The notes beneath the pieces are model-generated. The model made no database searches, was not told the origin of the DNA, and worked only from the letters and a program-made list of their open reading frames with translations. The position numbers and the translations under genes were made by a program. Of a stretch of 49,510 nucleotides of DNA, positions 9,555 through 44,557 are shown piece by piece. This DNA comes from Paracoccus sp. (in: a-proteobacteria) (lineage in GTDB: Bacteria > Pseudomonadota > Alphaproteobacteria > Rhodobacterales > Rhodobacteraceae): NCBI RefSeq assembly GCF_030604785.1, contig NZ_JAUVVF010000027.1, positions 1-49,510 of the forward strand. Reading direction: 5' to 3'. Positions within the stretch are counted from its first letter, which is position 1. The number at the start of each line of letters is the position of its first letter.

Positions 9555-9612
9555 GGGGGGCGCTGCCCCCCGTCCTGCGGACTCCCCCCGGGATATTTTG
9601 ACCAAGGCAAAG
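9555..9612 (+). repeat. Intergenic hairpin repeat, copy A
   Basis: Starts 14 bases after the KpsC-like stop, in the same sense. Order: GGGGGGC-GCT-GCCCCCC hairpin, second hairpin GTCC-TGC-GGAC, then T, C6, and the tail GGGATATTTTGACCAAG followed by GCAAAG. Copies B (28062-28119) and C (44495-44557) share the first hairpin, the C6 tract and the tail except one base, and differ in the second hairpin while keeping its pairing. Confidence 0.88.
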
Positions 9613-9712
9613 GCGGGAATGGCGACGCTTGGCCGACGCGGCACCGCGACGCATTGGCAGGCCTTGGTTGGGCGGGGCAGTCTGGGCGGCCGATGGCTGC
9701 TCAGAGGATGCC

Positions 9713-11236
9713 GTGACACGACTGATCCTGGTGCTGGGCGACCAGCTTTCGCATGAGATCGCCGCCCTGCGCGAGGCGCGGCCGGGCGATGTGGTGCTGA
9801 TGGCCGAGGTGATGGACGAGGCGAGCTATGTCCGCCACCACCCGCAGAAGATCGCGTTCATCTTTGCAGCGATGCGGAAATTTGCGGCCGAACTGCAAGG
9901 CCGGTGTCTGGACGTGGCCTATACCCGGCTGGATGATCCCGAAAACAGCCAGTCTATCGGCGGCGAGATCCTGCGCCTGGCTGCTGCGCGCGGTGCGGCC
10001 GAGGTGATCGCCACCGAGCCGGGCGAATGGCGGCTGATCCGGGCTCTGGCCGATCTGCCGATCCCGGTGCATCAGCGGGCCGATGACCGGTTCTTTGCCA
10101 GCCATGCCGAATTCGAGGCTTGGGCCAAGGGCCGCAAGGAATTGCGGATGGAATGGTTCTATCGCGAGATGCGGCGCAAGACCGGCCTGTTGATGCAAGG
10201 CGACCAACCCGAGGGCGGGCAGTGGAATTACGACCATGACAATCGCAAGCCTGCCTCGGCCGATCTGTTGCGCGTCAGGCCGCCCGTCTGCGAGCCCGAT
10301 GCGGTGACGTCCGAGGTCCTGGATCTGGTCGAGGCGCGGTTTCCCGACAATTTCGGCCGCCTGCGTCCCTTTGGCTGGGCGACGGACCGGGCGGGGGCGC
10401 TGCGGATGCTGGATCACTTCATCCGCCATGCGTTGGACGAGTTCGGCCCCTATCAGGATGCGATGCTCGAGGACGATCCGTTCCTGCACCATTCGCTGCT
10501 GTCGCCCTATATCAATGCGGGGCTTCTGTCGCCGCGCGAGGTCTGCGAGGCCGTGGCGCAGGCCCATGCGCGGGGCGAGGTGCGGCTGAATTCGGCCGAG
10601 GGCTTCATCCGCCAGATCCTTGGCTGGCGCGAATACATGCGGGGGATCTATTTCCTCGAAGGGCCTGACTACACCACACGGAACGTGCTGGATCACCGCC
10701 GCGACCTGCCGCCCCTGTTCTGGGGCGCGAAGACGCGGATGAACTGCATGGCCCGCGTCGTCGGTCAGACGCGCGATCGCGCCTATGCCCATCACATCCA
10801 GCGCCTGATGGTCACGGGGAATTTCGCGCTGCTGGCGGGGATCGATCCGGCTCAGGTCCATGAATGGTATCTGGCCGTCTATGTCGACGCCTATGAATGG
10901 GTCGAGGCGCCGAACGTCATCGGGATGAGCCAGTTCGCCGATGGGGGCGTGGTGGGCTCGAAGCCCTATGTCAGCTCCGGGAACTACATCAGCAAGATGT
11001 CCGATTACTGCAGGGGCTGCGCCTACAAGGTCGCCGCGCGGACCGGTCCCGATGCCTGCCCGTTCAACCTGCTATACTGGGACTTCCTGGACCGCCATCG
11101 CGACCGTTTCGCGCGCAATCCTCGCATCGGCCGCATCTATGCGACCTGGGACAGGATGGACGAAGCACGCCGCCGCACGATCCGGGCCGAGGCGGCGGAT
11201 TTTCTGAACCGCATGGTCTCGGGCGAGACCGTCTGA
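9713..11236 (+). CDS. Iron-sulfur bacterial photolyase/cryptochrome (CryB/PhrB type)
   Basis: 507 residues from GTG at 9713, with GAGG about 5 bases upstream. It matches the FeS-BCP class, (6-4) photolyases or cryptochromes with FAD, a [4Fe-4S] cluster and a dimethylribityllumazine antenna. The four cluster cysteines are present: C345 (RMNCMARVV), C433 and C436 (DYCRGCAYK) and C449 (DACPFN). Each is offset by exactly 5 from C350/C438/C441/C454 of Agrobacterium PhrB. The FAD region with HHSLLSPYINAGLLSP and ILGWREYMRG is intact. The protein may repair (6-4) photoproducts, signal light as reported for Rhodobacter CryB, or both; the sequence does not decide. It follows repeat copy A and precedes an ABM-GNAT gene by 59 bases. 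Confidence 0.93.
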   Translation: MTRLILVLGDQLSHEIAALREARPGDVVLMAEVMDEASYVRHHPQKIAFIFAAMRKFAAELQGRCLDVAYTRLDDPENSQSIGGEILRLAAARGAAEVIATEPGEWRLIRALADLPIPVHQRADDRFFASHAEFEAWAKGRKELRMEWFYREMRRKTGLLMQGDQPEGGQWNYDHDNRKPASADLLRVRPPVCEPDAVTSEVLDLVEARFPDNFGRLRPFGWATDRAGALRMLDHFIRHALDEFGPYQDAMLEDDPFLHHSLLSPYINAGLLSPREVCEAVAQAHARGEVRLNSAEGFIRQILGWREYMRGIYFLEGPDYTTRNVLDHRRDLPPLFWGAKTRMNCMARVVGQTRDRAYAHHIQRLMVTGNFALLAGIDPAQVHEWYLAVYVDAYEWVEAPNVIGMSQFADGGVVGSKPYVSSGNYISKMSDYCRGCAYKVAARTGPDACPFNLLYWDFLDRHRDRFARNPRIGRIYATWDRMDEARRRTIRAEAADFLNRMVSGETV

Positions 11237-11295
11237 CGCTTGACGCCGCCGCCTTGCCCGGCGAGTTTGACGCAGGGGCATCGGGAGGAACAGGC

Positions 11296-12090
11296 ATGAT
11301 CTGCAGTTGCGGCCATCACACGGCGGCGGACCCGGAACTGGGTGGACAGACCGTCACCCTGTCGCGGCCGGCCGTCTCGCTGCACGGCCGGCTGATCTGC
11401 CAGAGCGCGTCCCAGATGCTGACCGCGCTGGACCTGCTGCCCGGTCACGTCGCCGCCAGCCGGGCCGAGCCGGGCTGCCTGCTGTTCAGGATCGACCAGA
11501 CCGACGATCCCGCGATCTGGACGCTGCGCGAGGTCTTTGCCGACGAGGCCGCCTTCGCCGCCCACCGGACCCGCAGCGCGGCCAGCCGCTGGGGTCAGCG
11601 CAGCCGCAAGATGGGCCGCGACTTTCATCGGCATGACACCCATCCTCGCATCCGGCCCGAAAGCCCGACGGACCGCGAGGGGCTGGACCGTTTGCTGCGG
11701 CTGGGATCGGGACGCGGGGCCAGGATGATGGAGCGTCTGCGCGCCGATGGCGACCTGACGCATTCGCTGATCGCCCATCTCGAGGGGCAGCCGGTGGGCC
11801 ATGTCGCCCTTTCACCGCTGGCGGCGGACACGCCTGCATTGGCGCTTGGCCCGCTCATGGTCCATCCGGCCTTGCGGGGCCGCGGGCTGGGGCGCGCCCT
11901 GATCGCCGCAGCGATCGAGGCGGCAGGCCCGGACCCTGTCGTCGCCTTCGGCCCGCCTGCGCTGTTCGCGCCCTGCGGCTTTCGCCCCGTCGAGCCGGAT
12001 CCGTCCGGCCAGGGGTCTGCGGCCCTTGTCCATGGCACGCTACCCGCAGGCAGCGCGATCCGGCAGGCCCACGCCTTCACCGATCCCTGA
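11296..12090 (+). CDS. Fusion of an ABM-type monooxygenase-like domain and a GNAT acetyltransferase
   Basis: 264 residues from ATG at 11296 with GGAGG 7 bases upstream. The frame is open far upstream, but that part is a shadow of the photolyase gene. A short N-terminus with CSCGHH leads into an antibiotic-biosynthesis-monooxygenase-like ferredoxin fold (about residues 28-112; LICQSASQMLTAL, EPGCLLFRID, EVFADEAAFAAHR). A GNAT domain follows (about 117-250), with LGPLMVHPALRGRGLGRAL carrying the acetyl-CoA loop RGRGLG. ABM domains often act on quinols or reactive small molecules; the acceptor of the GNAT half is unknown. The gene probably shares a transcript with the photolyase. Confidence 0.75.
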   Translation: MICSCGHHTAADPELGGQTVTLSRPAVSLHGRLICQSASQMLTALDLLPGHVAASRAEPGCLLFRIDQTDDPAIWTLREVFADEAAFAAHRTRSAASRWGQRSRKMGRDFHRHDTHPRIRPESPTDREGLDRLLRLGSGRGARMMERLRADGDLTHSLIAHLEGQPVGHVALSPLAADTPALALGPLMVHPALRGRGLGRALIAAAIEAAGPDPVVAFGPPALFAPCGFRPVEPDPSGQGSAALVHGTLPAGSAIRQAHAFTDP

Positions 12091-12092
12091 CC

Positions 12093-12106
12093 GGGGCGAG
12101 AGCCCC
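12093..12106 (+). terminator. Short GNRA-capped hairpin after the ABM-GNAT gene
   Basis: GGGGC-GAGA-GCCCC followed by TT, two bases after the stop codon at 12088-12090. The stem is only 5 bp, so it may be a weak terminator or a 3'-end stabiliser. Confidence 0.3.
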
Positions 12107-12162
12107 TTGCGCCCTTCGGTTTCAGCGTCCACATCTGAACCGGACAAGGGAAAGGACCGATC

Positions 12163-13977
12163 ATGGCAGGCAGCATGGCATTTGACGCGCAGGAACCGGC
12201 AAAGGGCGAATTCGGCGCTTTGCCCGAATGGGATCTGACCGATCTCTATCCCGCGCCGGACAGCCCGGAACTGGCCGCCGATACCGAGGCTCTGGGCCAG
12301 CGCGTCGCCCGCTTTGCCCAGACCTACCAGAACCGCCTGGCCGATCTGACGCCCGCCGAAATGCTGGCCTGCATCGAGGAATACGAGCAGATCGACATTC
12401 TGGCCGGCCGGATCATGTCCTATGTCGGGCTGCGTTATTACCAGAACACGACCGATCCGATCCGCGCCAAGCAGATGGGCGACCTGCAGGGCAAGATCAC
12501 GGACCTGACGACGCCGCTGGTCTTCTTCAGCCTCGAATTCAACCGCATCCCGGACGAGACCTATCAGGCCGTCTTTGCCGCCGCGGACGGCCCGGCGCGC
12601 TACAAGCCGGTCTTCGACCGGATGCGCGCGATGCGCCCACACCAGCTGTCCGACGAACTCGAGCAGTTCCTGCACGACAATTCGGTCGTGGGCGCCGTTG
12701 CCTGGAACCGCCTGTTCGACGAGACCACCGCCGCGCTGACCTTTGACGTGGACGGAGAGACGCTTGGCATGGAAGCCACGCTGAACCTCCTGACCGACCA
12801 CGACCGCGCCCGGCGCGAGGCCGGTGCCCGCGCGCTGGCCAAGGTCTTCACCGCGAATGTCGGATTGTTCGCGCGCATCCACAACACGCTGGCCAAGGAA
12901 AAGGCGATCGAGGACAAGTGGCGCAAGATGCCCTCGGCCCAACATGCCCGGCACCTGTCGAACCATGTCGAACCCGAAGTCGTCGAGGCGCTGCGCAATG
13001 CCGTCACCGCCGCCTATCCGCGCCTGTCGCACCGCTATTATGCGCTGAAGGCGCGCTGGCTGGGGCTGGACAAGCTGCAGGTCTGGGACCGCAATGCACC
13101 ACTGCCCTCTGACACGCCCCGGATCATCGACTGGCCAGAGGCCAGGGCGACGGTGCTGGACGCCTATGCGGGCTTTTCGCCCGATCTGGCCGATCTGGCG
13201 CGGCCGTTCTTCGACAAGGGCTGGATCGATGCGGGGGTGAAGCCCGGCAAGGCGCCCGGCGCCTTCGCCCATCCGACGGTGACGACCGCGCATCCCTATA
13301 TCCTGCTCAATTACCTGGGCAAGCCGCGCGATGTGATGACACTGGCCCATGAGCTGGGCCACGGCGTCCACCAGCGTCTGGCCGCAGGTCAGGGCGAGCT
13401 TCTGGCCTCGACGCCGCTGACGCTGGCGGAAACGGCCTCGGTCTTCGGCGAGATGCTGACCTTCCGCGCGCTTCTGTCCAAGACCACCGATCCGGCGCAG
13501 AAGAAGGCTCTGCTGGCTGGCAAGGTCGAGGACATGATCAACACGGTGATCCGTCAGATCGCGTTCTACGATTTCGAATGCCGCCTGCACGCCGCCCGGG
13601 CCGAGGGCGAGTTGACGCCCGACGACATCAACGCGCTGTGGATGCAGGTCCAGCATGAAAGCCTTGGCCCGGTCTTTGAATTCATGCCGGGATACGAGAC
13701 TTTCTGGACCTATATCCCGCATTTCGTTCATTCGCCCTTTTACGTCTACGCCTATGCGTTCGGCGACGGGCTGGTGAACGCGCTTTATGCCGCCTACGAG
13801 GACGGGCTGCCGGACTTCCAGGCCCGCTATTTCGATCTTCTCCGGGCGGGCGGTTCGCGTCACCACAAGGACCTTCTGGCGCCGTTCGGGCTGGACGCCT
13901 CGGACCCGGCCTTCTGGGACAAGGGCCTGTCGATGATCGAGGGCCTGATCGACCAGCTCGAGGCGCTGGAAGACTGA
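12163..13977 (+). CDS. pepF: Oligoendopeptidase F (M3 metallopeptidase)
   Basis: 604 residues from ATG at 12163 with AAGGA 7 bases upstream. M3B zinc peptidases cleave short cytoplasmic peptides. The catalytic zinc motif HELGH is at about residues 396-400 (TLAHELGHGVHQ), and the downstream ligand Glu lies in the TLAETASVFGEML segment, as expected. The N-terminal PepF-type helical domain (about 115-190) and the C-terminal HFVHSPFYVYAYAFG segment are complete. Length is typical (about 600). It stands alone between the GNAT gene and a second peptidase gene. Confidence 0.93.
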   Translation: MAGSMAFDAQEPAKGEFGALPEWDLTDLYPAPDSPELAADTEALGQRVARFAQTYQNRLADLTPAEMLACIEEYEQIDILAGRIMSYVGLRYYQNTTDPIRAKQMGDLQGKITDLTTPLVFFSLEFNRIPDETYQAVFAAADGPARYKPVFDRMRAMRPHQLSDELEQFLHDNSVVGAVAWNRLFDETTAALTFDVDGETLGMEATLNLLTDHDRARREAGARALAKVFTANVGLFARIHNTLAKEKAIEDKWRKMPSAQHARHLSNHVEPEVVEALRNAVTAAYPRLSHRYYALKARWLGLDKLQVWDRNAPLPSDTPRIIDWPEARATVLDAYAGFSPDLADLARPFFDKGWIDAGVKPGKAPGAFAHPTVTTAHPYILLNYLGKPRDVMTLAHELGHGVHQRLAAGQGELLASTPLTLAETASVFGEMLTFRALLSKTTDPAQKKALLAGKVEDMINTVIRQIAFYDFECRLHAARAEGELTPDDINALWMQVQHESLGPVFEFMPGYETFWTYIPHFVHSPFYVYAYAFGDGLVNALYAAYEDGLPDFQARYFDLLRAGGSRHHKDLLAPFGLDASDPAFWDKGLSMIEGLIDQLEALED

Positions 13978-14041
13978 CCGAAACGCTTTGCCGCTGAGCG
14001 GGGCCGGTTTATCATCGGCCGCCGACGATGCGGAGGGAATC

Positions 14042-15223
14042 ATGGCAAGACGCGCTGTGCTGGGGCTTGTCCTTGCGCTGGCCTCTGCACTTGCGCTGTT
14101 CTTCACGATTGCCCCCGCCAGGATCGAGCGCAGCATGAACGTCGTGTCCATGCCGCCCGGCGGCTGGCCGGTCACCGAGCACGCCCTGGCGCTGCATGCC
14201 GATCTGATCATCGGCGATCTGCATTCCGGCATGCTGGTCTGGGATCGCGACCCGTTGCGCCGCGCCGGTCGCGGCCACACCGACCTTCCGCGCCTGAAAG
14301 AGGGCAATGTCGCTGTGCACGTGATCGCGGCCAATACCGACAGCCCGTTCGGCCAGAACTACACGCGCAACCGCTCGGATTCGCGCGACCGGGTGTCGGC
14401 GCTGTTCATCACGCAGCTTCGCCCGCCCAAGACCTGGTTCTCGGCGATGGAACGTGCTCTGGAGCAGGCCAACGATCTTGCCGAGGCCGAGGCCCGCGCC
14501 CCCGAGACCCTTCGCATCATCCGCGCCCGCCCCGACCTCGACATGGTGCTTTCGGCGCGGCAGCAAGGCCAGCCGCTTGTGGGTGCCCTGCTCGCGATCG
14601 AGGGCGCCTATCTGCTGAACGGGGATCCCGCCAATCTTGACCGTCTCGTTCAGGCCGGGTTCCGCGTCGTCGGGCTGGTCGAGTTCCTCGACAACGAATT
14701 GGGTCCCAGCCTGCACGGCGAAAGCTATCGCGACTACGGTCTCACCGGTTTCGGTCGCCTGATGGTCCGGCGCATGATCGACCAGAACCTGATCATCGAC
14801 CTGTCCCATGCTTCGCCCGCCACGGTGGCCGACGTCCTGGCCATTCCCGGCGCTCGGCCGATCCTGTCGCATACGGGCGTCCTGTCGCATTGTCCCAGCA
14901 CCCGGAACATCGCTGACACCAAGCTGCAGAAGATCGCGGCGGCGGGCGGCCTGATCGGCATCGGGTTCTGGAGCGACGTCGTCTGCGGCACCACCCCGGC
15001 CGAAATTGCGGGCGCCATCCGCGCGGCGATCGCTCTGGTGGGCGAGGATCATGTCGCGCTAGGGTCGAACTGGGACGGGGGCGTCGAGGTGCCGTTCGAC
15101 GCGGCGCATCTGCCCGCCCTGACCCAAGCCCTGCTGGATGCCGGGCTGCGAGAGGAACAGATCCGCAAGGTGATGGGGGGCAACATGATCCGCTTCCTCA
15201 GCGAGGCCTTGCCGCAGCATTGA
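14042..15223 (+). CDS. M19 membrane dipeptidase family protein with altered zinc motif
   Basis: 393 residues from ATG at 14042, with GGAGG just upstream. One N-terminal hydrophobic segment (about 5-24) suggests a membrane anchor or uncleaved signal. The body is an M19 (renal dipeptidase-like) barrel. Seen ligands are Glu187 (AIEGAYLL), His256 (IDLSHAS) and His277 (ILSHTGVLSHCPSTRNI), with Asp345 in GSNWDGG. The first motif, normally His-x-Asp, reads DLHSGMLVW, so His61 is kept and the Asp ligand is Gly63. The enzyme may bind one metal or have changed activity. rbsD follows after 9 bases. Confidence 0.85.
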   Translation: MARRAVLGLVLALASALALFFTIAPARIERSMNVVSMPPGGWPVTEHALALHADLIIGDLHSGMLVWDRDPLRRAGRGHTDLPRLKEGNVAVHVIAANTDSPFGQNYTRNRSDSRDRVSALFITQLRPPKTWFSAMERALEQANDLAEAEARAPETLRIIRARPDLDMVLSARQQGQPLVGALLAIEGAYLLNGDPANLDRLVQAGFRVVGLVEFLDNELGPSLHGESYRDYGLTGFGRLMVRRMIDQNLIIDLSHASPATVADVLAIPGARPILSHTGVLSHCPSTRNIADTKLQKIAAAGGLIGIGFWSDVVCGTTPAEIAGAIRAAIALVGEDHVALGSNWDGGVEVPFDAAHLPALTQALLDAGLREEQIRKVMGGNMIRFLSEALPQH

Positions 15224-15232
15224 GAGGCTGGA

Positions 15233-15616
15233 ATGAAACGGACGACCCTTCTGAACGCGCCCTTGTCGGGGCTCATCGCCTCGATGGGGCATGGCGATCT
15301 GCTGGTCATCGGCGATGCGGGGCTGCCGGTGCCGCAAGGGGTTCGTGTCATCGATCTGGCGGTGACGCGGGGTGTGCCGGGGGTGTTCGACGTGCTTGAC
15401 GCGGTGCTGGCGGAACTGGTGGTCGAACGCTCGGCCGTGGCCAGCGAGGCCGACCCCGCGCTGGTGGGCCGGTTCGCCGAGCGCGACATCGGCGCAATGG
15501 GCCGTCTATCGCATGAAGAGTTCAAAGAGCACAGCCGCAAGGCCCGCGCCATTGTGCGCACGGGCGAGTGCACGCCCTATGCGAATATCTGCCTTTGGGC
15601 CGGTGTCGCATTCTAG
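15233..15616 (+). CDS. rbsD: D-ribose pyranase (RbsD/FucU family)
   Basis: 127 residues, start at 15233 with GAGAGG upstream. RbsD-type mutarotases interconvert pyranose and furanose forms of ribose, supplying ribokinase. Family markers are [16 protein letters not shown] with the catalytic His near residue 20, and the C-terminal [17 protein letters not shown]. No ribokinase or ribose transporter gene is nearby; the neighbour is the M19 gene, probably in the same transcript. FucU-like specificity cannot be ruled out. Confidence 0.9.
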
Positions 15617-15651
15617 GGCGGGAACCAGCCGATGATTACCGGTGTTCCGGT

Positions 15652-15663
15652 TGCATTAATGCA
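15652..15663. promoter_or_regulatory. AT-rich perfect palindrome upstream of the entericidin gene
   Basis: TGCATTAATGCA, a 12-base perfect palindrome, ends 25 bases before the entericidin start codon. A short hairpin ACCGG-TGTT-CCGGT lies immediately to its left. This could be a repressor or activator site; no regulator is identified. Confidence 0.35.
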
Positions 15664-15688
15664 GACAAAACAATCAAAGGAGTGTCTC

Positions 15689-15835: not shown

Positions 15836-15852
15836 GCCGCGACCTGCGGTCG

Positions 15853-15873: not shown

Positions 15874-15885
15874 TGACACTTCGAT

Positions 15886-18822: not shown

Positions 18823-20791
<1,969 letters not shown>

Positions 20792-25905: not shown

Positions 25906-27243
25906 ATGGAACCCGTCCACATCATCGGCGCCGGCCTCGCCGGATCCGAGGCAGCCTGGCAGATCGCCCGTGCCGGCGTCCCGGTCGTCCTGCACGAGAT
26001 GCGCCCCGCCAAAGGCACCTTCGCGCACCGCACCGGCGACTGCGCCGAGATGGTCTGCTCGAACAGCTTCCGCTCGGACGACGACGTGATGAACGCCGTC
26101 GGCCAGCTGCACTGGGAGATGCGGGCGGCAGCCGGGCTGATCATGCAGATGGCCGCCCGCCACCGCCTGCCTGCGGGCGGCGCGCTGGCCGTGGACCGCG
26201 ACGCCTTCTCGGCCGCCGTGACCGAGGCGCTGCGGGCCGAGCCGCTGGTCACGATCCAGCCCGGCGAGATCACCGAACTGCCGGACAGCGGCAACTGGAT
26301 CGTGGCGACGGGGCCGCTGACCTCGGATGCGCTGGCCGGCGCGATCCGCCGGCTCACCGGCACCGAGGCGCTGGCCTTCTTCGACGCGATCGCGCCGATC
26401 GTCCACGCCGAGACGATCGACATGTCCGTCGCGTGGGAGCAGTCGCGCTATGACAAGGGCGAGTCGCTGGCCGAGCAGAAGGCCTACATCAACTGCCCGA
26501 TGACCAGGGCCGAATACGAGGCCTTCATCGACGCCCTGCTGGCCGCCGAGAAGACCGAGTTCCACGAGGGCGAGACGGCGGGCTATTTCGACGGCTGCCT
26601 GCCGATCGAGGTCATGGCCGAGCGCGGCCGCGAGACCTTGCGCCACGGCCCGATGAAGCCCGTCGGCCTGACCAACGCCCACCGGCCAGAGGAGAAGCCC
26701 TACGCCGTCGTCCAGCTGCGGCGGGACAACGCGCTCGGCACGCTCTACAACATCGTCGGCTTCCAGACCAAGATGAAGTACGGCGCGCAGACCCAGGTCT
26801 TCCGCATGATCCCGGGCCTGCAGGACGCCAGCTTCGCCCGCCTCGGCGGGATCCACAGGAACAGCTTCCTCAATTCGCCCACGCTGCTCGACGACCGGAT
26901 GCGCCTGCGCCTCGCGCCGCATCTGCGCTTTGCCGGGCAGGTCACGGGAGTCGAGGGCTATGTCGAAAGCGCCGCGATGGGCCTTCTGGCGGGCCGCATG
27001 GCCGCCGCGCAGGCCCTAGGGCGCGATTTGCCGCCCCCGCCCGTCACCACCGCGATGGGCGCGCTGGTCAACCACATCACCGGCGGTGCCGAGGCCAGGA
27101 CGTTCCAGCCGATGAACGTGAACTTCGGCCTCTTCCCGCCGCTCGAGGAGGCGAGGGGCGGCCGCCGCGGCCGCAAGGACCGTTATCCGGCCTACACGCA
27201 GCGCGCCAAGGACGATTTCGGGGCATGGCTGGCGGCGAGCTGA
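25906..27243 (+). CDS. trmFO: Methylenetetrahydrofolate-tRNA-(uracil-5-)-methyltransferase TrmFO
   Basis: 445 residues from ATG at 25906 with GGAGA about 5 bases upstream; ATG at 25894 would take in that site. TrmFO methylates U54 of tRNA to ribothymidine using methylenetetrahydrofolate and FAD. Seen are the FAD-binding [59 protein letters not shown] and [14 protein letters not shown]. The last 19 bases overlap gluQ, so the two tRNA-modification genes are coupled. Confidence 0.96.
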
Positions 27244-28061
27244 CGCGCTTTGCGCCCTCACCCACGGGGCTGCTGCATCTGGGCCACGCCTTCTCGGCGC
27301 TGATCGCGGCGACGCATGGCCGCTTTCACCTGCGGATCGAGGACATCGACCGGGATCGCTGCCGCCCCGAATTCGAGACCGCGATCTTCGAGGACCTCGC
27401 CTGGCTCGGCCTCGACTGGCCCCGGCCGGTGATGCGCCAATCCGACCGACTGCCCGCCTACCAGCAGGCGCTGGACCGCCTCGCGGCCCTGACCTATCCC
27501 TGCCGCTGCCGCCGCGCCGATATCCGCGCCGCCCTATCCGCCCCGCAAGAAGGCGCCCTGCCTGCGGGTCCCGACGGGCTGATCTATCCGGGCACCTGCC
27601 GCCACCGTGGCCACGATCAGGCCGGGCCCGATGACGTCATCCGCCTCGACGCGGCCCGGGCTTTCGCAGCACTCGGCCTCGACCGCATCGCCTTCCGCGA
27701 TCAGGCGACACAGCCCGACCGGGACCACGCTTTGACCGCGACCGAATTCACCGCCACGATCGGGGACGTGATCCTGTCCCGGCGCGGCATGGGCACGTCC
27801 TACCATCTGGCAGTCGTCATCGACGACGCCGCCCAGGGCATCACTCTCGTGACACGCGGCCGCGACCTGCTGCAGGCGACCTTCATCCATATCCTGCTGC
27901 AACGCCTTCTGGACCTGCCGACCCCCCGCTATCTGCATCACCGCCTGATCCGCGACGATGCCGGCAAGCGCCTCGCCAAACGCGACGATGCCCGCGCGCT
28001 GCGCCATTACCGAGAGGCGGGCGCCACCCCGGACGACATCCGCCGCATGATCGGCCTCTGA
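27225..28061 (+). CDS. gluQ: Glutamyl-Q tRNA(Asp) synthetase
   Basis: 278 residues, a truncated GluRS-like protein without an anticodon-binding domain. GluQRS charges glutamate onto queuosine at position 34 of tRNA(Asp). Seen are [19 protein letters not shown] (HIGH-type motif), [10 protein letters not shown], the zinc-site cysteines CRCRR and GTCRHR, and [13 protein letters not shown] (KMSKS-like loop). It overlaps trmFO by 19 bases. Repeat copy B begins one base past its stop, although that repeat is oriented with hisI. Confidence 0.94.
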
Positions 28062-28119
28062 CTTTGCCTTGGTCCAAATATCCCGGGGGGAGCCCGCAGG
28101 GCGGGGGGCAGCGCCCCCC
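28062..28119 (-). repeat. Intergenic hairpin repeat, copy B
   Basis: Minus-strand copy. It begins at the last base of the hisI TAG stop codon and fills the gap to the gluQ stop. Order: GGGGGGC-GCT-GCCCCCC, second hairpin GCCC-TGC-GGGC, T, C6, and GGGATATTTGGACCAAG followed by GCAAAG. Compared with copy A the second stem changes GTCC/GGAC to GCCC/GGGC, a compensatory change. Confidence 0.88.
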
Positions 28120-37266: not shown

Positions 37267-39072
37267 ATGACCGAGACACAAGAGGCCGCATACAAGGTTC
37301 TGGCGCGGAAATACCGGCCCGAGACCTTTGCCGACCTGGTGGGCCAGGATGCGATGGTCCGCACGCTGAAGAACGCCTTTGCCGCCGACCGGATCGCGCA
37401 GGCCTTCGTGATGACGGGCATCCGCGGCACCGGCAAGACGACCACGGCACGCATCATCGCCAAGGGCATGAACTGCATCGGCCCCGACGGCACGGGTGGT
37501 CCCACCACCGAACCCTGCGGGCGCTGCGAGCATTGCGTGGCCATCGCCGAGGGGCGCCATGTCGACGTGATGGAGATGGACGCGGCCTCGCGCACGGGCG
37601 TGGGCGACATCCGCGAGATCATCGAATCGGTGCATTACCGGGCGGCCAGCGCGCGCTACAAGATCTACATCATCGACGAGGTCCACATGCTGTCGACCAG
37701 CGCGTTCAACGCGCTGCTGAAGACGCTGGAAGAGCCGCCCCCGCATGTGAAGTTCATCTTTGCCACGACCGAAATCCGCAAGGTTCCGGTCACCGTCCTG
37801 TCGCGCTGCCAGCGCTTCGATCTGCGGCGGATCGAACCCGAGGTGATGATCGCGCTCCTGCGCCGCATCGCGGATGCCGAGGGGGCCTCGATCACCGATG
37901 ACGCGCTGGCACTGATCACGCGCGCGGCCGAGGGCTCGGCCCGGGACGCGACCTCGCTTCTGGATCAGGCGATCAGCCATGGCGCGGGCGAGACGACCGC
38001 CGATCAGGTCCGCGCGATGCTGGGTCTGGCCGACAGGGGCCGGGTGATCGACCTCTTCGAGATGATCCTGCGCGGCGACGCCGCCGCCGCCCTGACCGAG
38101 CTTCAGGGCCAGTATGCCGACGGAGCCGACCCGGTGGCGGTGCTGCGCGATCTTGCGGATGTGACGCACTGGATCTCGGTCGCCAAGATCACGCCGGACG
38201 CGCTGGAGGACCCGACCATCGCCCCCGATGAACGCCTGCGCGGCCGCGATCTGTGCGAACGGCTGCCGATGCGCGTCCTGTCGCGGATGTGGCAGATGCT
38301 GCTCAAGGCGCTGGACGAGGTCTCGGCCGCGCCGAACGCGATGATGGCCGCCGAGATGGCGGTGATCCGCCTGACCCATGTGGCCGACCTGCCCGACCCC
38401 GAGGCGCTTATCCGCCGCGTCCAGCAGGCGCAGAACGCAGGCGAATTCGCGCGCGGACCCGCCATGGCCGGGACCGGTTCGGGGGCGGGCGCGCAGGCGG
38501 TGGAAGCCCCTCACGCGATGCGCCGCGCCCGCCCTGCACCGGCGGTCCAGTCGCGCGGTTCCGCAGCGCAGGCGCTGGCCGTGGCGCCGGAACTGGTCGA
38601 GAGCTTTCCCGACTTCGCCTCGGTCGTCGATCTGATCGCACGGATGCGGGACATGACGCTTTTGGTGATGGTCGAGCGCCATGTCTCGCTGGTGCGCTAC
38701 AGCCCCGGCCGGATCGAGTTCCAGCCGCGCGGCAATGCGCCTGCGGAACTGGCGCAGCGTCTGGCCGAACGCCTGCGCGGCTGGACGGGCGGGCAGCGTT
38801 GGGCGGTCACCGTCACGAACGAGGACGGCGCCCCCACCATCGCCGAGATGCGCGAGGCCGAGGAACGCGAAGCCCAGGAACGCGCCCTGGCCCTGCCGAT
38901 CGTCCAGCAGGTGCTGGCGACCTTTCCCGGCGCGACCCTGACCCGCGTCACACGCGCCGCGCCCCCGCCCGTCATCGCAGACGAGGCCGAGGGCGCCGGC
39001 AATCCCCATGACGGAACCGAAGGCCCCGTGGCCGAGGTTGAGGAATGGGACCCCTTCGAAGATGAGGATTAG
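37267..39072 (+). CDS. dnaX: DNA polymerase III subunits gamma/tau
   Basis: 601 residues. AAA+ clamp loader subunit: Walker A GIRGTGKTTT (51-60), zinc cysteines C70, C84, C87, C90, Walker B with IIDEVHML, and sensor 1 FATTEIRKVPVTVLSRCQRF. Domain III ends near residue 385; an Ala/Pro linker (about 390-435) leads to the tau C-terminal region and an acidic tail (EEWDPFEDED). No obvious slippery A6-7 frameshift site was seen, so only the full-length product is supported. ybaB follows after 3 bases. Confidence 0.97.
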   Translation: MTETQEAAYKVLARKYRPETFADLVGQDAMVRTLKNAFAADRIAQAFVMTGIRGTGKTTTARIIAKGMNCIGPDGTGGPTTEPCGRCEHCVAIAEGRHVDVMEMDAASRTGVGDIREIIESVHYRAASARYKIYIIDEVHMLSTSAFNALLKTLEEPPPHVKFIFATTEIRKVPVTVLSRCQRFDLRRIEPEVMIALLRRIADAEGASITDDALALITRAAEGSARDATSLLDQAISHGAGETTADQVRAMLGLADRGRVIDLFEMILRGDAAAALTELQGQYADGADPVAVLRDLADVTHWISVAKITPDALEDPTIAPDERLRGRDLCERLPMRVLSRMWQMLLKALDEVSAAPNAMMAAEMAVIRLTHVADLPDPEALIRRVQQAQNAGEFARGPAMAGTGSGAGAQAVEAPHAMRRARPAPAVQSRGSAAQALAVAPELVESFPDFASVVDLIARMRDMTLLVMVERHVSLVRYSPGRIEFQPRGNAPAELAQRLAERLRGWTGGQRWAVTVTNEDGAPTIAEMREAEEREAQERALALPIVQQVLATFPGATLTRVTRAAPPPVIADEAEGAGNPHDGTEGPVAEVEEWDPFEDED

Positions 39073-39075
39073 GCG

Positions 39076-39420
39076 ATGATCAAGGGTTTGGGCGGCATTG
39101 GCGACATGGCCAAGATGATGAAGGCCGCCAAGGACATGCAGGACAAGATGGGCCAGATGCAGGAAGAGATGGCCCGCATCACCGTGACCGGAGAATCCGG
39201 CGCGGGGCTGGTGCGGGCCACCTGCACCGCAAAAGGCGAGCTGACGGAGCTGGAGATTGACCCCTCGATCTTCGTTCCCTCGGAAAAGGAGGTCGTCGAG
39301 GACCTGATCCTTGCCGCCATCAAGGAGGCGCAGCGCCTGGCCGAGGAACGGATGAAATCCGAGATGGCGAAGATGACCGAAGGGCTGGGCCTGCCGCCCG
39401 GCATCAAGCTGCCCTTCTGA
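39076..39420 (+). CDS. YbaB/EbfC nucleoid-associated protein
   Basis: 114 residues. Small dimeric DNA-binding protein. Visible are the Met/Lys-rich N-terminal helix (MKAAKDMQDKMGQMQEEMA), the beta core TVTGESGAGLVRATCTAKGE and EIDPSI, and the C-terminal helix with IKEAQRLAEERMKSEMAKM. It sits in the conserved dnaX-ybaB-recR operon, 3 bases from each neighbour. Confidence 0.96.
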   Translation: MIKGLGGIGDMAKMMKAAKDMQDKMGQMQEEMARITVTGESGAGLVRATCTAKGELTELEIDPSIFVPSEKEVVEDLILAAIKEAQRLAEERMKSEMAKMTEGLGLPPGIKLPF

Positions 39421-39423
39421 GCC

Positions 39424-40035
39424 ATGCGCGACCCGCAGGCCGAGGGCAGCGACGACATTCAGGCGCTGATCGCCCTGATGGGGCGACTGCCGGGGCTCGG
39501 TCCGCGTTCGGCCCGGCGGATCGTGCTGCAACTGATCCGCAGGCGCGGCGACCAGATGGCGCAGCTTGCCGCGCTGATGGAGAAGGTGGCGCAGAACTCG
39601 CGCGAATGCCTGTCCTGCGGCAACATCACCGACCGCGACCTGTGCGCGATCTGCGCCGACCCCGCCCGCGCCACGGGCGAGATCTGCGTGGTTCAGGACG
39701 TCGCCGATCTGTGGGCGCTGGAACGCGGCCGCGCCTTTCGCGGCCGCTATCACGTGCTGGGCGGCACGCTCTCGGCTCTGGACGAGATCGGCCCCGAGGA
39801 TCTGGGCATCCCGCAGCTTCTGGACCGCATCGCCTCTGAAAGCGTGTCCGAGGTGATCCTGGCGCTGAACGCGACCGTCGATGGCCAGACCACCGCCCAT
39901 TACATCGCCGACGCGCTGGAGGGGCAGGCCGTCACCGTCACGGGCCTTGCCCAGGGCGTGCCCATCGGCGGAGAACTGGATTATCTGGACGACGGAACGA
40001 TCAGCGCGGCGCTGAGGGCGCGGCGACGCCTGTGA
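39424..40035 (+). CDS. recR: Recombination protein RecR
   Basis: 203 residues. RecR forms a clamp with RecO that loads RecA at gaps. The helix-hairpin-helix ([20 protein letters not shown]), a four-Cys zinc finger ([16 protein letters not shown]) and a TOPRIM domain ([17 protein letters not shown]) are present in order. The C-terminal Walker B-like ARGVPxGGELDY-type segment reads [14 protein letters not shown]. The stop lies 3 bases from the convergent S8 protease stop. Confidence 0.97.
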
Positions 40036-40038
40036 GCG

Positions 40039-41058
40039 TCACTGGATCCGGGCGGGTGCCAGGGCGCGGGCAAGGCTTGCCTCGCCCCGGCCGTGCTGGG
40101 CGGGATTGTAGTTGCGGATCGTGTCGGTGCGCGCGGTGTCCAGCAGGCGGTTGCCGATCTGCGTCGGCGTGGCATTGGTGAACTTGCTGCCCAGGACGGC
40201 CGCGTATCCGCTGACCACCGGCGCGGCATAAGAGGTGCCGTCCAGCCCGGTCAGATCGCCCCGGACGCCGACGGTCAGGAACTGGCGCTGCGCGCGACGA
40301 TCCTGCCCCGGGCGGTTCGAATAGCTGGCCAGATTGGCCCGGTCCGAGGGCGAGCCATGCCGGTCCAGCGCGCCCACGAAGATCGCCGCATCGCTGCCCA
40401 GCAGCGCAAGGTTCAGGTAATCGCTCCGGCCCGCCCGGTTCGCCCCGCCAAGCGCCGCGCCGTCATTGCCCGCAGCCTTGACCACCAGAGCCGATCCCTG
40501 CCGCGCATGGCGGATGACCGAGGCTTCTTGCGCCGACCATGCGATCCGCGCGGGGCTGTGACCGGCGGTCGCGAACATGGCATAGCTCAGATTGACGACG
40601 TTCAGGCCGGCGCCAAGCGACACCGCGCGGTTGGACCCCATGTCGTGGCGGCGCAGCTGTGCCTGCGGGGCCAGCAGCGACAGTTCAAGCTGCGTCCAGT
40701 CGCCATGACGCTGGCTCAGCCGGCCGGTGCCCAGATCGGCCTCGATCCGCGCGCCGCGGTCGAAACTGTCCACGACGGTGACGCTGGTGCCCTGTCCGCG
40801 ATAGCCCGCATTCCAGGCATCCGCGACATCGGGATGCATCCAGGGCCGGAACTGCGGATGCGTTGCCTGCCGAGGGGCGGGACGGCTTGCCACGACCGCA
40901 CGGCGGGTGGCCGCCGCAGGCCGCGCGCCCTGCCCGTCACGGGCGAAATCCTGACCCAGGGCCCCAAGCGCCGGATTCTGCGCCGATACCGCCTGGGGCG
41001 CGGCCAGCGACAGCAGGATGGCGAAGAAGGCTGCTAGGGGGCGGTAGGGGCGTGTCAT
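40039..41058 (-). CDS. Secreted S8 (subtilisin-like) serine protease
   Basis: 339 residues. The signal peptide is about residues 1-26 (ending AVSAQ). The full catalytic set is seen: Asp97 (TVVDSFDRG), His118 (SQRHGDW), oxyanion Asn198 (AAGNDGA) and Ser276 (GLDGTSYAAP). A short Ala/Arg-rich region (27-70) could be a brief propeptide. The catalytic domain is small, with the Asp-His spacing shortened to 21 residues. The gene is monocistronic, convergent with recR, and its start codon is immediately preceded by a hairpin that holds part of the ribosome binding site. Substrate unknown. Confidence 0.9.
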   Translation of the reverse strand: MTRPYRPLAAFFAILLSLAAPQAVSAQNPALGALGQDFARDGQGARPAAATRRAVVASRPAPRQATHPQFRPWMHPDVADAWNAGYRGQGTSVTVVDSFDRGARIEADLGTGRLSQRHGDWTQLELSLLAPQAQLRRHDMGSNRAVSLGAGLNVVNLSYAMFATAGHSPARIAWSAQEASVIRHARQGSALVVKAAGNDGAALGGANRAGRSDYLNLALLGSDAAIFVGALDRHGSPSDRANLASYSNRPGQDRRAQRQFLTVGVRGDLTGLDGTSYAAPVVSGYAAVLGSKFTNATPTQIGNRLLDTARTDTIRNYNPAQHGRGEASLARALAPARIQ

Positions 41059-41059
41059 T

Positions 41060-41085
41060 CTGCATCCTCGGATAACCGGATGCAG
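41060..41085 (-). promoter_or_regulatory. Hairpin over the ribosome binding site of the S8 protease
   Basis: Minus strand CTGCATCC, 10-base loop, GGATGCAG, a perfect 8-bp stem ending one base before the ATG at 41058. The GAGGA ribosome binding site falls across the loop and 3' arm, so folding would limit initiation. Confidence 0.45.
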
Positions 41086-41180
41086 TCCTAATATGGCTGA
41101 TGGTATTCCTCCTATACCGCCTTACGGATGGGCGGCATCCTTTCGGATGGGTCGCCGGGCTGTTCGGCCCCTAAAGAAAA

Positions 41181-41208
41181 GGCCCGCCCCTTCATCAAGG
41201 GGCGGGCC
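41181..41208 (-). terminator. Rho-independent terminator of rpmI-rplT
   Basis: 12-bp perfect stem GGCCCGCCCCTT / AAGGGGCGGGCC with a 4-base loop, followed by TTTTCTTT on the minus strand, 25 bases after the rplT stop. Confidence 0.92.
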
Positions 41209-41233
41209 GTTCCTCGGAATGACGAGGCCACGA

Positions 41234-41593
41234 TCAGGCGGCGGCTTTCGCCTTTTCGACGATCGCGCCAAAGGCTTCGGGCTCGTTCACGGCCAGATCG
41301 GCCAGAACCTTGCGGTCCACCTCGATCCCGGCTTTCGCCAGAAGGTTGATGAAGCGCGAATAGGTCATCTCGGCGTCGACCAGACGGACGGCGGCGTTGA
41401 TGCGCTGGATCCACAGGGCGCGGAAATTGCGCTTGCGGTTCTTGCGGTCGCGGGTGGCGTACTGGTTCGCCTTGTCCACGGCCTGGGTGGCGGTGCGGAA
41501 GTTCCGCGAACGGGCGCCGTAATAGCCCTTGGCCTGCTCCAGGACCTTCTTGTGGCGGGCGTGGGTGACCTTGCCGGATTTAACTCGTGCCAT
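41234..41593 (-). CDS. rplT: Ribosomal protein L20
   Basis: 119 residues, standard length. Strongly basic N-terminus ([20 protein letters not shown]) and the conserved core [20 protein letters not shown] are present. It binds 23S rRNA early in 50S assembly. It follows rpmI by 15 bases and ends at a strong terminator. infC, often at the head of this operon, is absent here. Confidence 0.98.
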
Positions 41594-41608
41594 TGTTCAG
41601 TCCTCGGA

Positions 41609-41809
41609 TCAGCGGTTGTAGGGCATGTATTTCTTGACGATCTTGGCATCCGCGTCCGAAAGGACCGTGGTGCCGCGCGCGTCGCGAATGAACTTCGTGG
41701 TGCGCTTGATCATGCCGTGGCGCTTGCCGGCCTGGGCGGATTTCACCTTGCCCGAGGCCGTGAACGAGAACCGCTTCTTGGCAGCGGATTTGGTCTTCAT
41801 CTTCGGCAT
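41609..41809 (-). CDS. rpmI: Ribosomal protein L35
   Basis: 66 residues from ATG at 41809 with AGGAG 6 bases upstream. It has the typical start [14 protein letters not shown], followed by [18 protein letters not shown] and the end KKYMPYNR. It is cotranscribed with rplT from a predicted promoter at 41887-41915. The upstream in-frame extension is not used, since the native start matches the family. Confidence 0.97.
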
Positions 41810-41886
41810 TTTCATCTCCTTCATCAGAGTGAACGCGCGACTCGGCAATGCCAACTTGGCCGGCCGCACGGGATCGGAAGCGTGCC

Positions 41887-41915
41887 TGATAAGCGCGCTT
41901 GCGTGATTTGGCAAG
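41887..41915 (-). promoter_or_regulatory. Predicted rpmI-rplT promoter
   Basis: Minus strand TTGCCA (41915-41910), 17-base spacer, TATCAG (41892-41887): 5 of 6 and 4 of 6 to the sigma-70 consensus. The leader to rpmI would be about 70 bases. No L20-type autoregulatory pseudoknot was recognised by eye. Confidence 0.48.
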
Positions 41916-41920
41916 AGGGG

Positions 41921-42142
41921 TCAGGGCGCGATGCGGCCCGTCAGCCTGTCCAGCGATGCAGCCAGCCCTTCGGGGCTGAACGGCTGGGGCTGCATGGCAA
42001 AGGCCCAGAAGATCAGCAGGATGCCCGCGACGAAGGCCAAAGCCGCCGCGCGCGGCGGCTGGGTCCGCAGAAGCTGGACCACTGCCAGAACGACCGACAG
42101 CAGGCACAGGACCAGACCGGCCCCCAGAAGAATATCCGTCAT
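41921..42142 (-). CDS. Small two-span membrane protein, unknown function
   Basis: 73 residues. Two hydrophobic helices, about 4-24 and 34-50, are joined by a short basic turn (LLRTQPPR), with a polar C-terminal tail. It lies 28 bases after the pyk stop on the same strand, so it is probably cotranscribed with pyk. I do not recognise a named family. Confidence 0.68.
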   Translation of the reverse strand: MTDILLGAGLVLCLLSVVLAVVQLLRTQPPRAAALAFVAGILLIFWAFAMQPQPFSPEGLAASLDRLTGRIAP

Positions 42143-42170
42143 CGCAGACCCCCGTTGATGCGTGGCCCGA

Positions 42171-43616
42171 TTACTCGGGATCGCTGGCGTAGATCAAGCG
42201 TTCGTCGCAGGGCGCGATCCGCAGGATGTTGGTCGAACCGGCGACGTTGAAGGGCACGCCCGCCATCACCACGACCTTGCGGCTTTCATCCGCGAACCCG
42301 AACTTGCGCGCGGCGCGGGTGGCGTTCACCACGGCCTCCTTGAAGCGCGACAGGCGCGCGGTCGCCACGCCATGCGTGCCCCAGGTCAGGCAGAGACGGC
42401 GCAGCACGCGATCCTCGGGCGACAGCGCCAGGATCGGCACGCGCGGACGCTCGCGCCCCACCAGGCTGACGGTCTGGCCCGACTGCGTGAAGACGCAGAT
42501 CGCCGCCACATCGGTGGTCTCGGCGATCTCGCGCGCCGCGGTCACGATCGCATCGGGGACCGAGGACAGCGAGGCCTTGCGCGCCGCCTCGATGATCGAG
42601 CGGTAGTTCGGGTCCGCCTCGACCGAGCGGGCGACGCTGTCCATCGTGGTCACGGCCTCGACCGGATAGCTGCCCGCGGCGCTTTCGGCCGACAGCATGA
42701 CGGCATCGGCGCCCTCGTAGATGGCATTGGCCACGTCGCTGACCTCGGCGCGGGTCGGCATCGGGCTTTCGATCATCGATTCCAGCATCTGGGTCGCCAC
42801 GATCACCGGCTTGGCGGCGCTGCGGCACAGGCGGACCAGACGCTTCTGGATCGGCGGCACCGAATGGACCGGCAGTTCCACGCCCAGATCGCCCCGCGCC
42901 ACCATGATCCCGTCCGAGACCTTGAGGATCTCGTCAAAGGCGCGCACGGCGGCGGGTTTCTCGATCTTGGACAGGATGGCGGCGCGGCCACGGGCCAGCA
43001 CCTTGGCCTCTTCGACATCCTCGGGGCGCTGCACGAAGGACAGGGCCAGCCAGTCCACGCCCAGTTCGCAGGCGAATTCCAGATCGGCGCGGTCCTTGTC
43101 GGACAAGGCCGCCAGCGGCAGGACCACGTCTGGGACGTTCACGCCCTTGCGGTCGCTGATCGTGCCGCCCACGGTGACGGTGCAATCGGCATGTTCGGGA
43201 CCGCAGGACACGACCTTGAGGCGGATCTTGCCGTCATTGACCAGAAGCTCGGCGCCTTCGACCAGCGCCGCGAAGATCTCCGGATGGGGCAGCTGCACGC
43301 GGCTGGCCGTGCCGGGCTCGGGGCTGAGGTCAAAGCGGAACGAATCGCCCTCGGACAGGTCGTGCGGGCCGGCCGCGAACTGGCCCACGCGCAGCTTGGG
43401 GCCCTGCAGGTCGGCCAGGACGGCGATGGGGCGGCCCGTCTCGGCCTCGATGGCGCGGATTGCGTCATAGCGCGCGCGGTGATCCTCGTGGCTGCCATGG
43501 CTCATGTTCAGCCGGAACACGTCTGCCCCCGCTTCGAACAGAGCCCGGATCATCTGGCTGCTGGACGAGGCCGGCCCAAGGGTGGCCACGATCTTCACGT
43601 TGCGATGTCTTCTCAT
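42171..43616 (-). CDS. pyk: Pyruvate kinase
   Basis: 481 residues from ATG at 43616 ([15 protein letters not shown]), with GGCGGGA upstream. It converts phosphoenolpyruvate and ADP to pyruvate and ATP. Visible are [15 protein letters not shown], the catalytic lysine in [12 protein letters not shown], the metal site in [12 protein letters not shown], and [25 protein letters not shown]. The C-terminal allosteric domain is present (about 355-475). It is divergent from the amidohydrolase gene. Confidence 0.97.
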
Positions 43617-43713
43617 AGTCCCGCCCCTTTGACGTTTAGCGCTATCTATGGCGCAAATGCTGCGTGGCGGCAACTGGCGTCCGGCCCGCATTCATCGTAA
43701 GCAGGCCTGCAGC

Positions 43714-44472
43714 ATGAATGATGACGCAACCATGACGGAACCCGCCTTCTGGATCGAGGGCCAGAATCGCCCCTCGCGCTGGCTGATCACCTGTGATCAC
43801 GCCACGAACCGCGTGCCGGACTGGATCGGCGGCGGCGATCTGGGCATCGCGCCGGCCGACATGGCCCGCCACATCGCCTATGACGTGGGTGCGGCCGGCC
43901 TGGCCTCGGCCCTGGCGGAGCGGATGGAGGCGCCGGCGATCTTCTCCGATTTCTCGCGGCTGGTGATCGACCCGAACCGGGGCGAGGACGATCCCACCCT
44001 GCTGATGCGGCTTTACGACGGCACCGTGATCCCGGCCAACCGCGACGCGGATGCGGCAGAGCGCGAAAGGCGGCTGGAGCGGCTGCACCGGCCCTATCAC
44101 CGGGCGCTGGCGTCGCTGGCCGACAGCCATCCCGCGCGCTGCATCTGCGCGATCCACAGCTTCACGCCGCAGCTTCGCGGCCGCCCGCCCCGGCCCTGGC
44201 AGGTCGGCATCCTCTATTCCCACCGCGACGCGCGGCTAGGCCCGGCCATGGTGGCGGCCTGCCGGGACGAGGGCTGGATCACCGGCGAGAACCAGCCCTA
44301 TGACGGGCATCTGGACGGGGATTCCATCGACCGGCACGCTTTGGCCCATGGGCGTCCGAACATGCTGATCGAGCTTCGCAACGACCTGATCGCCTCGGCC
44401 GAGGGTCAGGCGGAGTGGGCGGCACGGCTGGCGCCGGTCATCGCGGCGGTTCTGGCGCAGGCGGGGCTTTAG
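43714..44472 (+). CDS. N-formylglutamate amidohydrolase family protein
   Basis: 252 residues from ATG at 43714; ATG at 43648 or 43732 are in-frame alternatives. The family (HutG-like) hydrolyses N-formylglutamate or related formyl amides using zinc. Seen are LITCDHATNRVPDW (metal His), DFSRLVIDPNRGEDDPTL, LHRPYHRAL, CAIHSFTPQLRG and LIELRNDLI. No histidine-degradation genes adjoin it, so the physiological substrate is open. Repeat copy C starts 22 bases after its stop. Confidence 0.87.
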   Translation: MNDDATMTEPAFWIEGQNRPSRWLITCDHATNRVPDWIGGGDLGIAPADMARHIAYDVGAAGLASALAERMEAPAIFSDFSRLVIDPNRGEDDPTLLMRLYDGTVIPANRDADAAERERRLERLHRPYHRALASLADSHPARCICAIHSFTPQLRGRPPRPWQVGILYSHRDARLGPAMVAACRDEGWITGENQPYDGHLDGDSIDRHALAHGRPNMLIELRNDLIASAEGQAEWAARLAPVIAAVLAQAGL

Positions 44473-44494
44473 CGCGCTTGGCGGGAAAAGAAAG

Positions 44495-44557
44495 GGGGGG
44501 CGCTGCCCCCCGATCGCCGGCGGCGATCTCCCCCCGGGATATTTGGACCAAGGCAAA
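44495..44557 (+). repeat. Intergenic hairpin repeat, copy C
   Basis: In the same sense as the upstream amidohydrolase gene. Order: GGGGGGC-GCT-GCCCCCC, second hairpin GATCGCC-GGC-GGCGATC, T, C6, and GGGATATTTGGACCAAG followed by GCAAAG. Its second stem is 7 bp and unrelated in sequence to those of copies A and B, while the flanking blocks are conserved. Confidence 0.88.

Follow-up and report, generated by a model that had tools for sequence, protein, structure and literature searches.

The 49,510-nucleotide (nt) stretch of Paracoccus sp. DNA considered here ("the window"; positions 1 to 49,510 of contig NZ_JAUVVF010000027.1, assembly GCF_030604785.1) carries three copies of an intergenic element with a GC hairpin, a further C tract and a conserved tail (Table 1), each just past the stop codon of a gene: a KpsC-like gene (Pfam Capsule_synth), hisI (PRA-CH) and an N-formylglutamate amidohydrolase gene (FGase). 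On the far side of the copies, Pfam identified a photolyase-related protein, a class I tRNA-synthetase-like protein and an Aminotran_4 protein, respectively (7 open reading frames of the window were checked, and 6 had a family). The C6 tract plus 23-base tail has three exact matches in the window and none in 100 shuffles. The three copies are members of a large, real repeat family, the transcripts of which may, we propose, fold into a clamped triple helix at the end of the message.

A preliminary description of this DNA had all three copies in the right places and on the right strands, and its distances to the upstream genes hold as well: 14 nt past the Capsule_synth end at 9540, a G shared with the hisI stop codon TAG (28121-28119), and about 22 nt past the end of the amidohydrolase gene at 44472. 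Copy 3 was rightly located, but its extent needs correction (seven G at 44494-44500, and a tail that ends at 44558 instead of 44557). The description had dismissed operon duplication as the source of the copies, and we also rule it out, as the host genes are unrelated (by Pfam, both in the window and around the antisense copies elsewhere in the genome). It left unmentioned the convergent setting of copies 2 and 3: copy 2 lies 1 base from the stop of the tRNA-synthetase-like gene (27225-28061, +) and copy 3 is opposed by the aminotransferase class IV gene (44599-45504, -), so that each is also 3' of the opposite gene.

Table 1. Parts and setting of the three copies of the element in the window (coordinates from the sequence; context from the sequence and Pfam).
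Copy	Extent	Strand	G tract	Loop	First C tract	Second hairpin + T	Third tract	Linker	GGA	TATTT	NNN	11-nt tail	Context
1	9555-9612	+	G6, 9555-9560	CGCTG, 9561-9565	C6, 9566-9571	9572-9583	C6, 9584-9589	G, 9590	9591-9593	9594-9598	9599-9601	9602-9612	tandem sense; photolyase-related gene downstream
2	28062-28119	-	G6, 28119-28114	28113-28109	C6, 28108-28103	28102-28091	C6, 28090-28085	G, 28084	28083-28081	28080-28076	28075-28073	28072-28062	convergent hisI / tRNA-synthetase-like gene; nearly exact fill between two stop codons
3	44495-44558	+	G6, 44495-44500 (seventh G, 44494)	44501-44505	C6, 44506-44511	44512-44529	C6, 44530-44535	G, 44536	44537-44539	44540-44544	44545-44547	44548-44558	gap of convergent genes

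The source genome (3.14 Mb in 83 contigs, 98.5% complete) carries the tail GGATATTT-N(0-6)-CCAAGGCAA at 54 sites and a second tail, TATTT-N(0-7)-ACGAAGAAG, at 19, with no match to the reversed control pattern of either; these numbers are lower bounds, as more hairpin copies, such as C10:95241 and C17:32164, escape both patterns. The hairpin is present at 64 of the 73 tail sites, and a whole copy used as query found 41 places in the same genome, every one with either tail and a few with a base change. Across 13 genomes of the genus, including this one, raw matches to the hairpin pattern, with nested starts included, range from 3 to 204, and those in the controls from 0 to 4. A stricter pattern, with no match in any control, was positive in 88 of 198 genomes of the family Rhodobacteraceae, whereas across the class Alphaproteobacteria it occurred in the source genome and 1 of 209 others. 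Outside the family, 1 of 207 Alphaproteobacteria had it, in a single copy; this lone full copy, from another family (G483:C112:52518-52549), is possibly a transfer or a contamination. Near-identical copies with their flank lie at the ends of contigs C21 and C83 (L020 and L021), which probably reflects a duplication of the region or a split in the assembly. Rfam 15 gave no match in the whole window at gathering scores, and none at the element in three loci (L009, L043 and L077) at E up to 0.5. Phage cargo was ruled out, as one copy queried against 50,697 phage records matched none, and one copy queried against plasmids matched 9 records; 7 plasmid regions were examined, with 1 copy in tandem sense (folD/purU), 2 in tandem antisense, 2 convergent and 2 without annotation.

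Placement was scored for the hairpin copies with both flanks resolved, 62 in the source genome, 45 in genome G003 and 22 in genome G011 (n = 129), with genes beyond the window called by a simple codon-usage caller and, outside the window, Pfam checks of the nine antisense tandem copies and one divergent copy of the source genome. In that order of genomes, 31/18/5 copies lie between convergent genes, 20/17/7 are tandem sense, 9/10/5 tandem antisense and 2/0/5 divergent. The gap contains at least one gene 3' end for 122 of the 129 copies (60/62, 45/45 and 17/22), which bears out the tie to the 3' side of genes proposed in the preliminary description, and divergent gaps hold 7/129. Altogether 110 copies (55, 41 and 14) are close to a stop codon, no more than 31 nt away if it is a sense stop or 20 nt if it is antisense, and the G tract lies at a median of 21, 9 and 12 nt from the sense stop. 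Against a background of 183 gaps (taken from the fetched loci, so that copy-holding gaps are included), copies of the source genome are rare in divergent gaps (2/62 versus 46/183, p = 6e-6) and frequent in convergent ones (31/62 versus 35/183, p = 4e-8).

Checked genome-wide, as the preliminary description had suggested, placement thus favors the 3' side of genes and the sense strand, but orientation is not uniform: the three genomes have 44 tandem copies in sense versus 24 in antisense (p = 0.02). The statement that the element "always" reads in the sense of the upstream gene is wrong, because the antisense tandem copies are real: at the nine in the source genome, both neighbours matched Pfam on the called strand in 9/9. 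For one of the nine (L027), a sense tRNA-Leu gene lies 84 nt upstream, and recounting this copy accordingly gives 45 to 23 (p = 0.01). A tRNA or tmRNA gene occurs within 400 nt of five copies, and tRNA genes as hosts were considered, with no conclusion from these five cases apart from L027. In 18 of 24 cases an antisense tandem copy reaches to within 13 nt of the stop codon that it faces. What does stand of the claimed polarity is seen in close pairs (≤250 nt apart), which are tail-to-tail in 16 of 16 among 347 listed places of 11 genomes; three of these genomes (G104, G126 and G160) joined the count after tail-to-tail pairs had been seen there, and without them the figure is 12/12. Of the four close pairs in the source genome, three are in convergent gaps (L029, C7:14227/14255; L032, C10:104700/104736; L019, C41:2344/2485), where the facing tails form an inverted repeat between convergent genes, and the fourth (C3:113594/113770) lies elsewhere. 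Two single copies may be mentioned here: an antisense copy (L034:2984, contig C33) inside a tandem mraY / Mur ligase pair, where a sense terminator would cut an operon, and a sense copy (L038:2980-3030, contig C31) whose tail runs into an apparent ribosome-binding site, 4 nt before the called start.

A full copy consists, in order, of a G tract (4-7), a loop, a C tract, a middle segment, a third tract of C, a linker, GG(A/G)-TATTT and a purine-rich 11-nt tail. The middle segment is mostly 3 nt such as GGA and otherwise a second hairpin of varying sequence; the linker is mostly 1-3 nt, and usually three free bases separate TATTT from the tail. The G6/C6 hairpin had been recognized in the preliminary description, whereas the parallel order of the third tract relative to the purine strand and the match of linker to loop were overlooked. 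In 61 of the 64 copies of the source genome the third tract and the first C tract are equally long (5000 shuffles: mean 30.7, max 43), as would be required of the third strand of a purine-pyrimidine-pyrimidine (R-Y-Y) triple helix. Between the end of the hairpin stem and UAUUU lie at least about 12 nt; no U tract follows the hairpin directly, since the third tract comes next, and then UAUUU only. Folding energies of single copies (z-scores of -0.11, 0.52 and -0.95) are uninformative, given the high GC content of the sequence and a program that does not model triple helices.

All-G stems are blind to the direction of the third tract, and we therefore searched genomes of the family for stems that contain A. 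The first search (GGAGG...CCTCC) covered 325 genomes, 62 of which had matches, and 150 rows from 61 genomes were used; the reversed control patterns gave 9 matches over the 325 genomes, versus more than 150 real ones. Among the matches listed, 100 rows had an asymmetric stem: the third tract follows the purine strand in mirror order only in 47 (34 distinct, from 22 genomes; for example GGAGGG / CCCTCC / CCTCCC) and in antiparallel order only in none, while the remaining rows are mirror-only with A for T (13), have the A form in both directions (8), have both forms (12) or have neither (20). The 12 rows with both forms, and the 50 rows with symmetric stems, are silent on direction. A second set (GGGGA...TCCCC; 149 genomes, 25 of them with matches; 48 matches versus 11 in reversed controls; some loci common to the first set) had 34 mirror rows, no antiparallel row, 2 A-variants, 4 with neither and 8 without a third tract. 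A register scan in which the linker was set from the loop alone peaks in the parallel register (A faces T in 52 and A in 21, n = 128, as compared to 24 and 9 in the antiparallel register); the scan is blurred by the symmetric stems that it includes and by its longest-linker rule, which may take in the last C, and the count of asymmetric rows is the cleaner test of direction. Mirror order fits a parallel third strand lying on the purine strand, which demands such an order, and the mirror-only rows have what the R-Y-Y pyrimidine motif calls for, namely C facing G-C and T facing A-T, although 13 rows have A in place of T. Two simpler origins of the third tract, competition for Watson-Crick pairing with the G tract and duplication of the first C tract, were rejected, since each predicts antiparallel order, which occurs alone in 0 of the 100 listed rows.

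The linker is complementary to the center of the loop, as in the loop/linker combinations TTTGC/GCA, TTCGC/GCG, TTCAC/GTG, TTTCC/GA or GGA, TGTCT/GA, TGCCT/GG, xCx/G and xTx/A. Among the matches listed (strings from the source genome, the genus and the family, of which 265 of 290 were parsed and 25 were not), 58 of 76 distinct loop/linker pairs are complementary (2000 shuffles: mean 37.4, sd 2.8, max 47), as are 36 of the 54 with linkers of at least 2 bases (shuffle mean 18.2, max 27); G.T pairing rescues exceptions in 3/76. Such a clamp would carry the third tract from the base of the stem up to the loop, so that one back-folding strand can meet all three matches. The second hairpin occurs in at least 191 distinct versions, and only 31 of the 1193 pairs counted (in the stem with the best score, without a shuffle control) are not Watson-Crick. 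Nested duplicates and five rows without a third tract (G003:C2:345950, G008:C1:2200340, and G011:C1:303055, 733815 and 1936529) were dropped before the loop-linker and second-hairpin counts, and those of the five in G003 and G011 are also out of the close-pair count; exact duplicates and two rows (G209 and G040:C435) were removed from the family set of second hairpins.

The matches of the third tract and of loop with linker are signatures of a putative single-stranded triple helix with a loop clamp. We tentatively favor the view that the element is a message-end module whose transcript folds into such a clamped triple helix, likely making and shielding the 3' end of the message. The folded form would be the RNA of the sense strand: hairpin 1 would form as the sense transcript leaves RNA polymerase, the strand would then turn back via the short link or hairpin 2, the third tract would run along the stem in the major groove with C+.G-C and U.A-U triples, and the linker would lock onto the hairpin loop. 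The resulting knot would stop 3 nt short of UAUUU, before the fixed 8 nt GGRUAUUU, a spacing suited to RNA release, so that the polymerase may be halted by the knot near UAUUU and 3'-to-5' exonucleases may afterwards be blocked by it; the tail might be read by a factor that differs among lineages. The predicted fold is supported by covariation; transcript release and protection are inferred. Possible, with more doubt attached, is the wider proposal that RNA triple helices (a hairpin groove occupied by a parallel third strand, with a loop-linker lock) end the messages of an entire bacterial family. They would be a new class of signal that ends transcripts or shields their ends, possibly pH-sensitive, and would be followed by a lineage-specific tail for a candidate reader factor.

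Several observations weigh against a module folded in RNA of the sense strand. Contiguous C+.G-C triples require protonation; there is no true U tract, UAUUU being all that there is; and a minority of the third tracts listed have A rather than T opposite A (13 A-only versus 47 T-only). One third of the tandem copies are antisense with their structure equally intact (third-tract length kept in 22/24 antisense and 36/44 sense copies, linker match in 22/24 and 39/44), divergent copies make up 5/22 in G011, and some sense copies lie within 10 nt of the start of the next gene, which would be odd for a full terminator. Mismatches in the second hairpin include 11 A.C and 14 T.C/C.T versus 1 G.T, which suits the complementary strand better. 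Finally, many copies of the tail have no such hairpin (in the source genome, at hisI loci, and in genomes G051 and G053), and tail copies in G053 are 7 tandem sense versus 7 antisense.

Because of the intact antisense third, the minority A, the protonation, the tail-only copies and the bias of the hairpin-2 mismatches, the main rival is a fold of the complementary strand, which we consider unlikely. Read in that direction, the element has two G tracts separated by a hairpin, and then a loop and a C tract. A triple helix of the purine motif (G.G-C with A.A-T or T.A-T) could result, whether in RNA or in melted DNA, and would serve at gene ends as a block or insulator that tolerates either orientation. 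Protonation is unnecessary in the purine motif, which also allows both T and A opposite A-T pairs, as are found; the hairpin-2 mismatches would there be mostly G.U and G.A, and antisense copies have their structure equally intact. The excess of tandem sense over antisense copies and the tail-to-tail arrangement of all 16 listed close pairs speak against it, and the loop-linker exceptions rescued by G.T, though few, favor the top strand.

The preliminary description had offered a module of the 3' untranslated region (a terminator or mRNA-end protector) or a repetitive extragenic palindromic (REP)-like element that inserts at gene ends, and a repeat at the 3' side of genes it is. A REP-like mobile DNA repeat, harmless when inserted at gene ends and with a folded single strand that serves only its own copying, is somewhat less probable again than the complementary-strand fold. 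The family is extragenic, has many copies and is rare in divergent gaps in the manner of REP (2/62, 0/45 and 5/22 divergent), its presence at one orthologous site is patchy, its tails are lineage-specific and both orientations occur. Against this, the REP-associated tyrosine transposase (RAYT; Y1_Tnp, PF01797) had no match in the source genome (it was found in 5 of 14 control genomes), which leaves a RAYT-type REP element unsupported there; close pairs show polarity; and the second hairpins vary among copies yet remain paired, which suggests selection on each copy.

We regard as improbable the idea that the 19-nt tail is the true signal, a DNA site for a candidate protein that marks or blocks gene ends, with the hairpin an optional helper. 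The tail does occur alone, at 9 of the 73 sites of the source genome (L051, L054, L056, L061, L062, L064, L067, L070 and L072), 6 of which lie 4-33 nt past a sense stop codon, after hisI in several genera, and in two genomes of other genera (tandem sense and antisense copies being 5 and 3 in G051 and 7 each in G053), and its 3-nt spacer is fixed in most copies. On the other hand, a tail signal leaves the conserved three-strand matching unexplained. At the 3' site of hisI, 80 loci (nearly all Rhodobacteraceae by title) were compared: 12 carry the full element in hisI sense by the strict pattern, others are by eye tail-only or have neither, and a few neighbours carry the element reversed. The nearest named relatives at this locus are Paracoccus species, P. 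bogoriensis first (96%). Tail forms vary by lineage, the matches listed including CCAAGGCAAAG, CCAAAGCAG, ACAGAAGATG, CAAGATGAAG and others, and 6 of the 8 second-tail sites without a hairpin read ATGGGTATTTNNNCAACGAAGAAG. Two tail forms may share a genome, CCAAGGCAAAG and CAACGAAGAAG in the source genome and CCAAGATGAAG and CAAAGAAGAAG in G051, as if there were two readers.

Ordinary intrinsic terminators, in which the third tract would be a C-rich coincidence, are already disfavored and very improbable: the GC hairpin with its short U-rich stretch, placed at gene ends, is in their favor, but the mirror-order covariation, the length match, the loop-linker complementarity and a stem that ends at least about 12 nt before UAUUU are not. 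RNase E processing at UAUUU was weighed and not preferred, because only about 2% of RNase E cleavage sites lie in 3' untranslated regions, according to excerpts of PMC6238624.

If the triple helix forms in RNA, bacteria would have in this element a very large natural collection of intramolecular triple helices, with 64 hairpin copies in the source genome alone and relatives in many genera, and a family with many marine and photosynthetic members would have a new way of ending or protecting its messages. Natural variation among the copies, A-T stems included, would offer ready tests of triple-helix rules; should the complementary strand fold instead, the copies would form a natural library of triple helices of the purine motif, made of DNA or RNA.

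Among known systems, RNA triple helices of the ENE (element for nuclear expression)/MALAT1 type protect 3' ends, the ENE by U.A-U triples with the poly(A) tail. The element is alike in its predicted triple helix at an RNA 3' end and its proposed exonuclease resistance, and unlike in that its predicted triples are mainly C.G-C and that it is internal to a repeat. Helices of the ENE/MALAT1 type are mentioned in PMC11625349. REP and BIME (bacterial interspersed mosaic element) repeats, with their RAYT transposases, are likewise many-copied, extragenic and hairpin-forming, and also avoid divergent gaps, but they differ from the element in sequence, and the element adds a parallel third tract, an 11-nt tail and pair polarity in a genome in which no RAYT was found. 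Intrinsic (Rho-independent) terminators share the GC hairpin, the U-rich stretch after it and the location at gene ends; the element instead has UAUUU only, a third tract between stem and UAUUU, and conserved sequence beyond. Among the papers listed by full-text searches none describes the element, although coverage of subscription journals was poor and this is weak evidence of absence; pieces of its sequence searched in papers hit 727 of them, and the 30 listed were unrelated. For PNPase-dependent 3' ends, the available portion of PMC7866481 states that MEME found no motif, and PMC8625941, likewise available in part, was among the sources compared. The HRC-8-4 motif, as described in extracts of PMC8632094, resembles the element in being a Rhodobacterales-only stem with a conserved loop near a terminator-like sequence, but it is tied to cco/hvrB loci and is followed by a run of U, whereas the present family is scattered over unrelated genes. 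Structural parallels exist with the SAM-V (PMC6061858) and preQ1-II and -III (PMC11625349) riboswitches, which, in the sections of these papers at hand, also place a third strand in the major groove of a helix and lock the fold by loop pairing; these are 5' ligand sensors with few, mixed triples, and in SAM-V the third strand lies 5' of the helix, while the element has the order purine strand, pyrimidine strand, third strand, 4-8 like triples by prediction, a place at gene 3' ends and tens of copies per genome.

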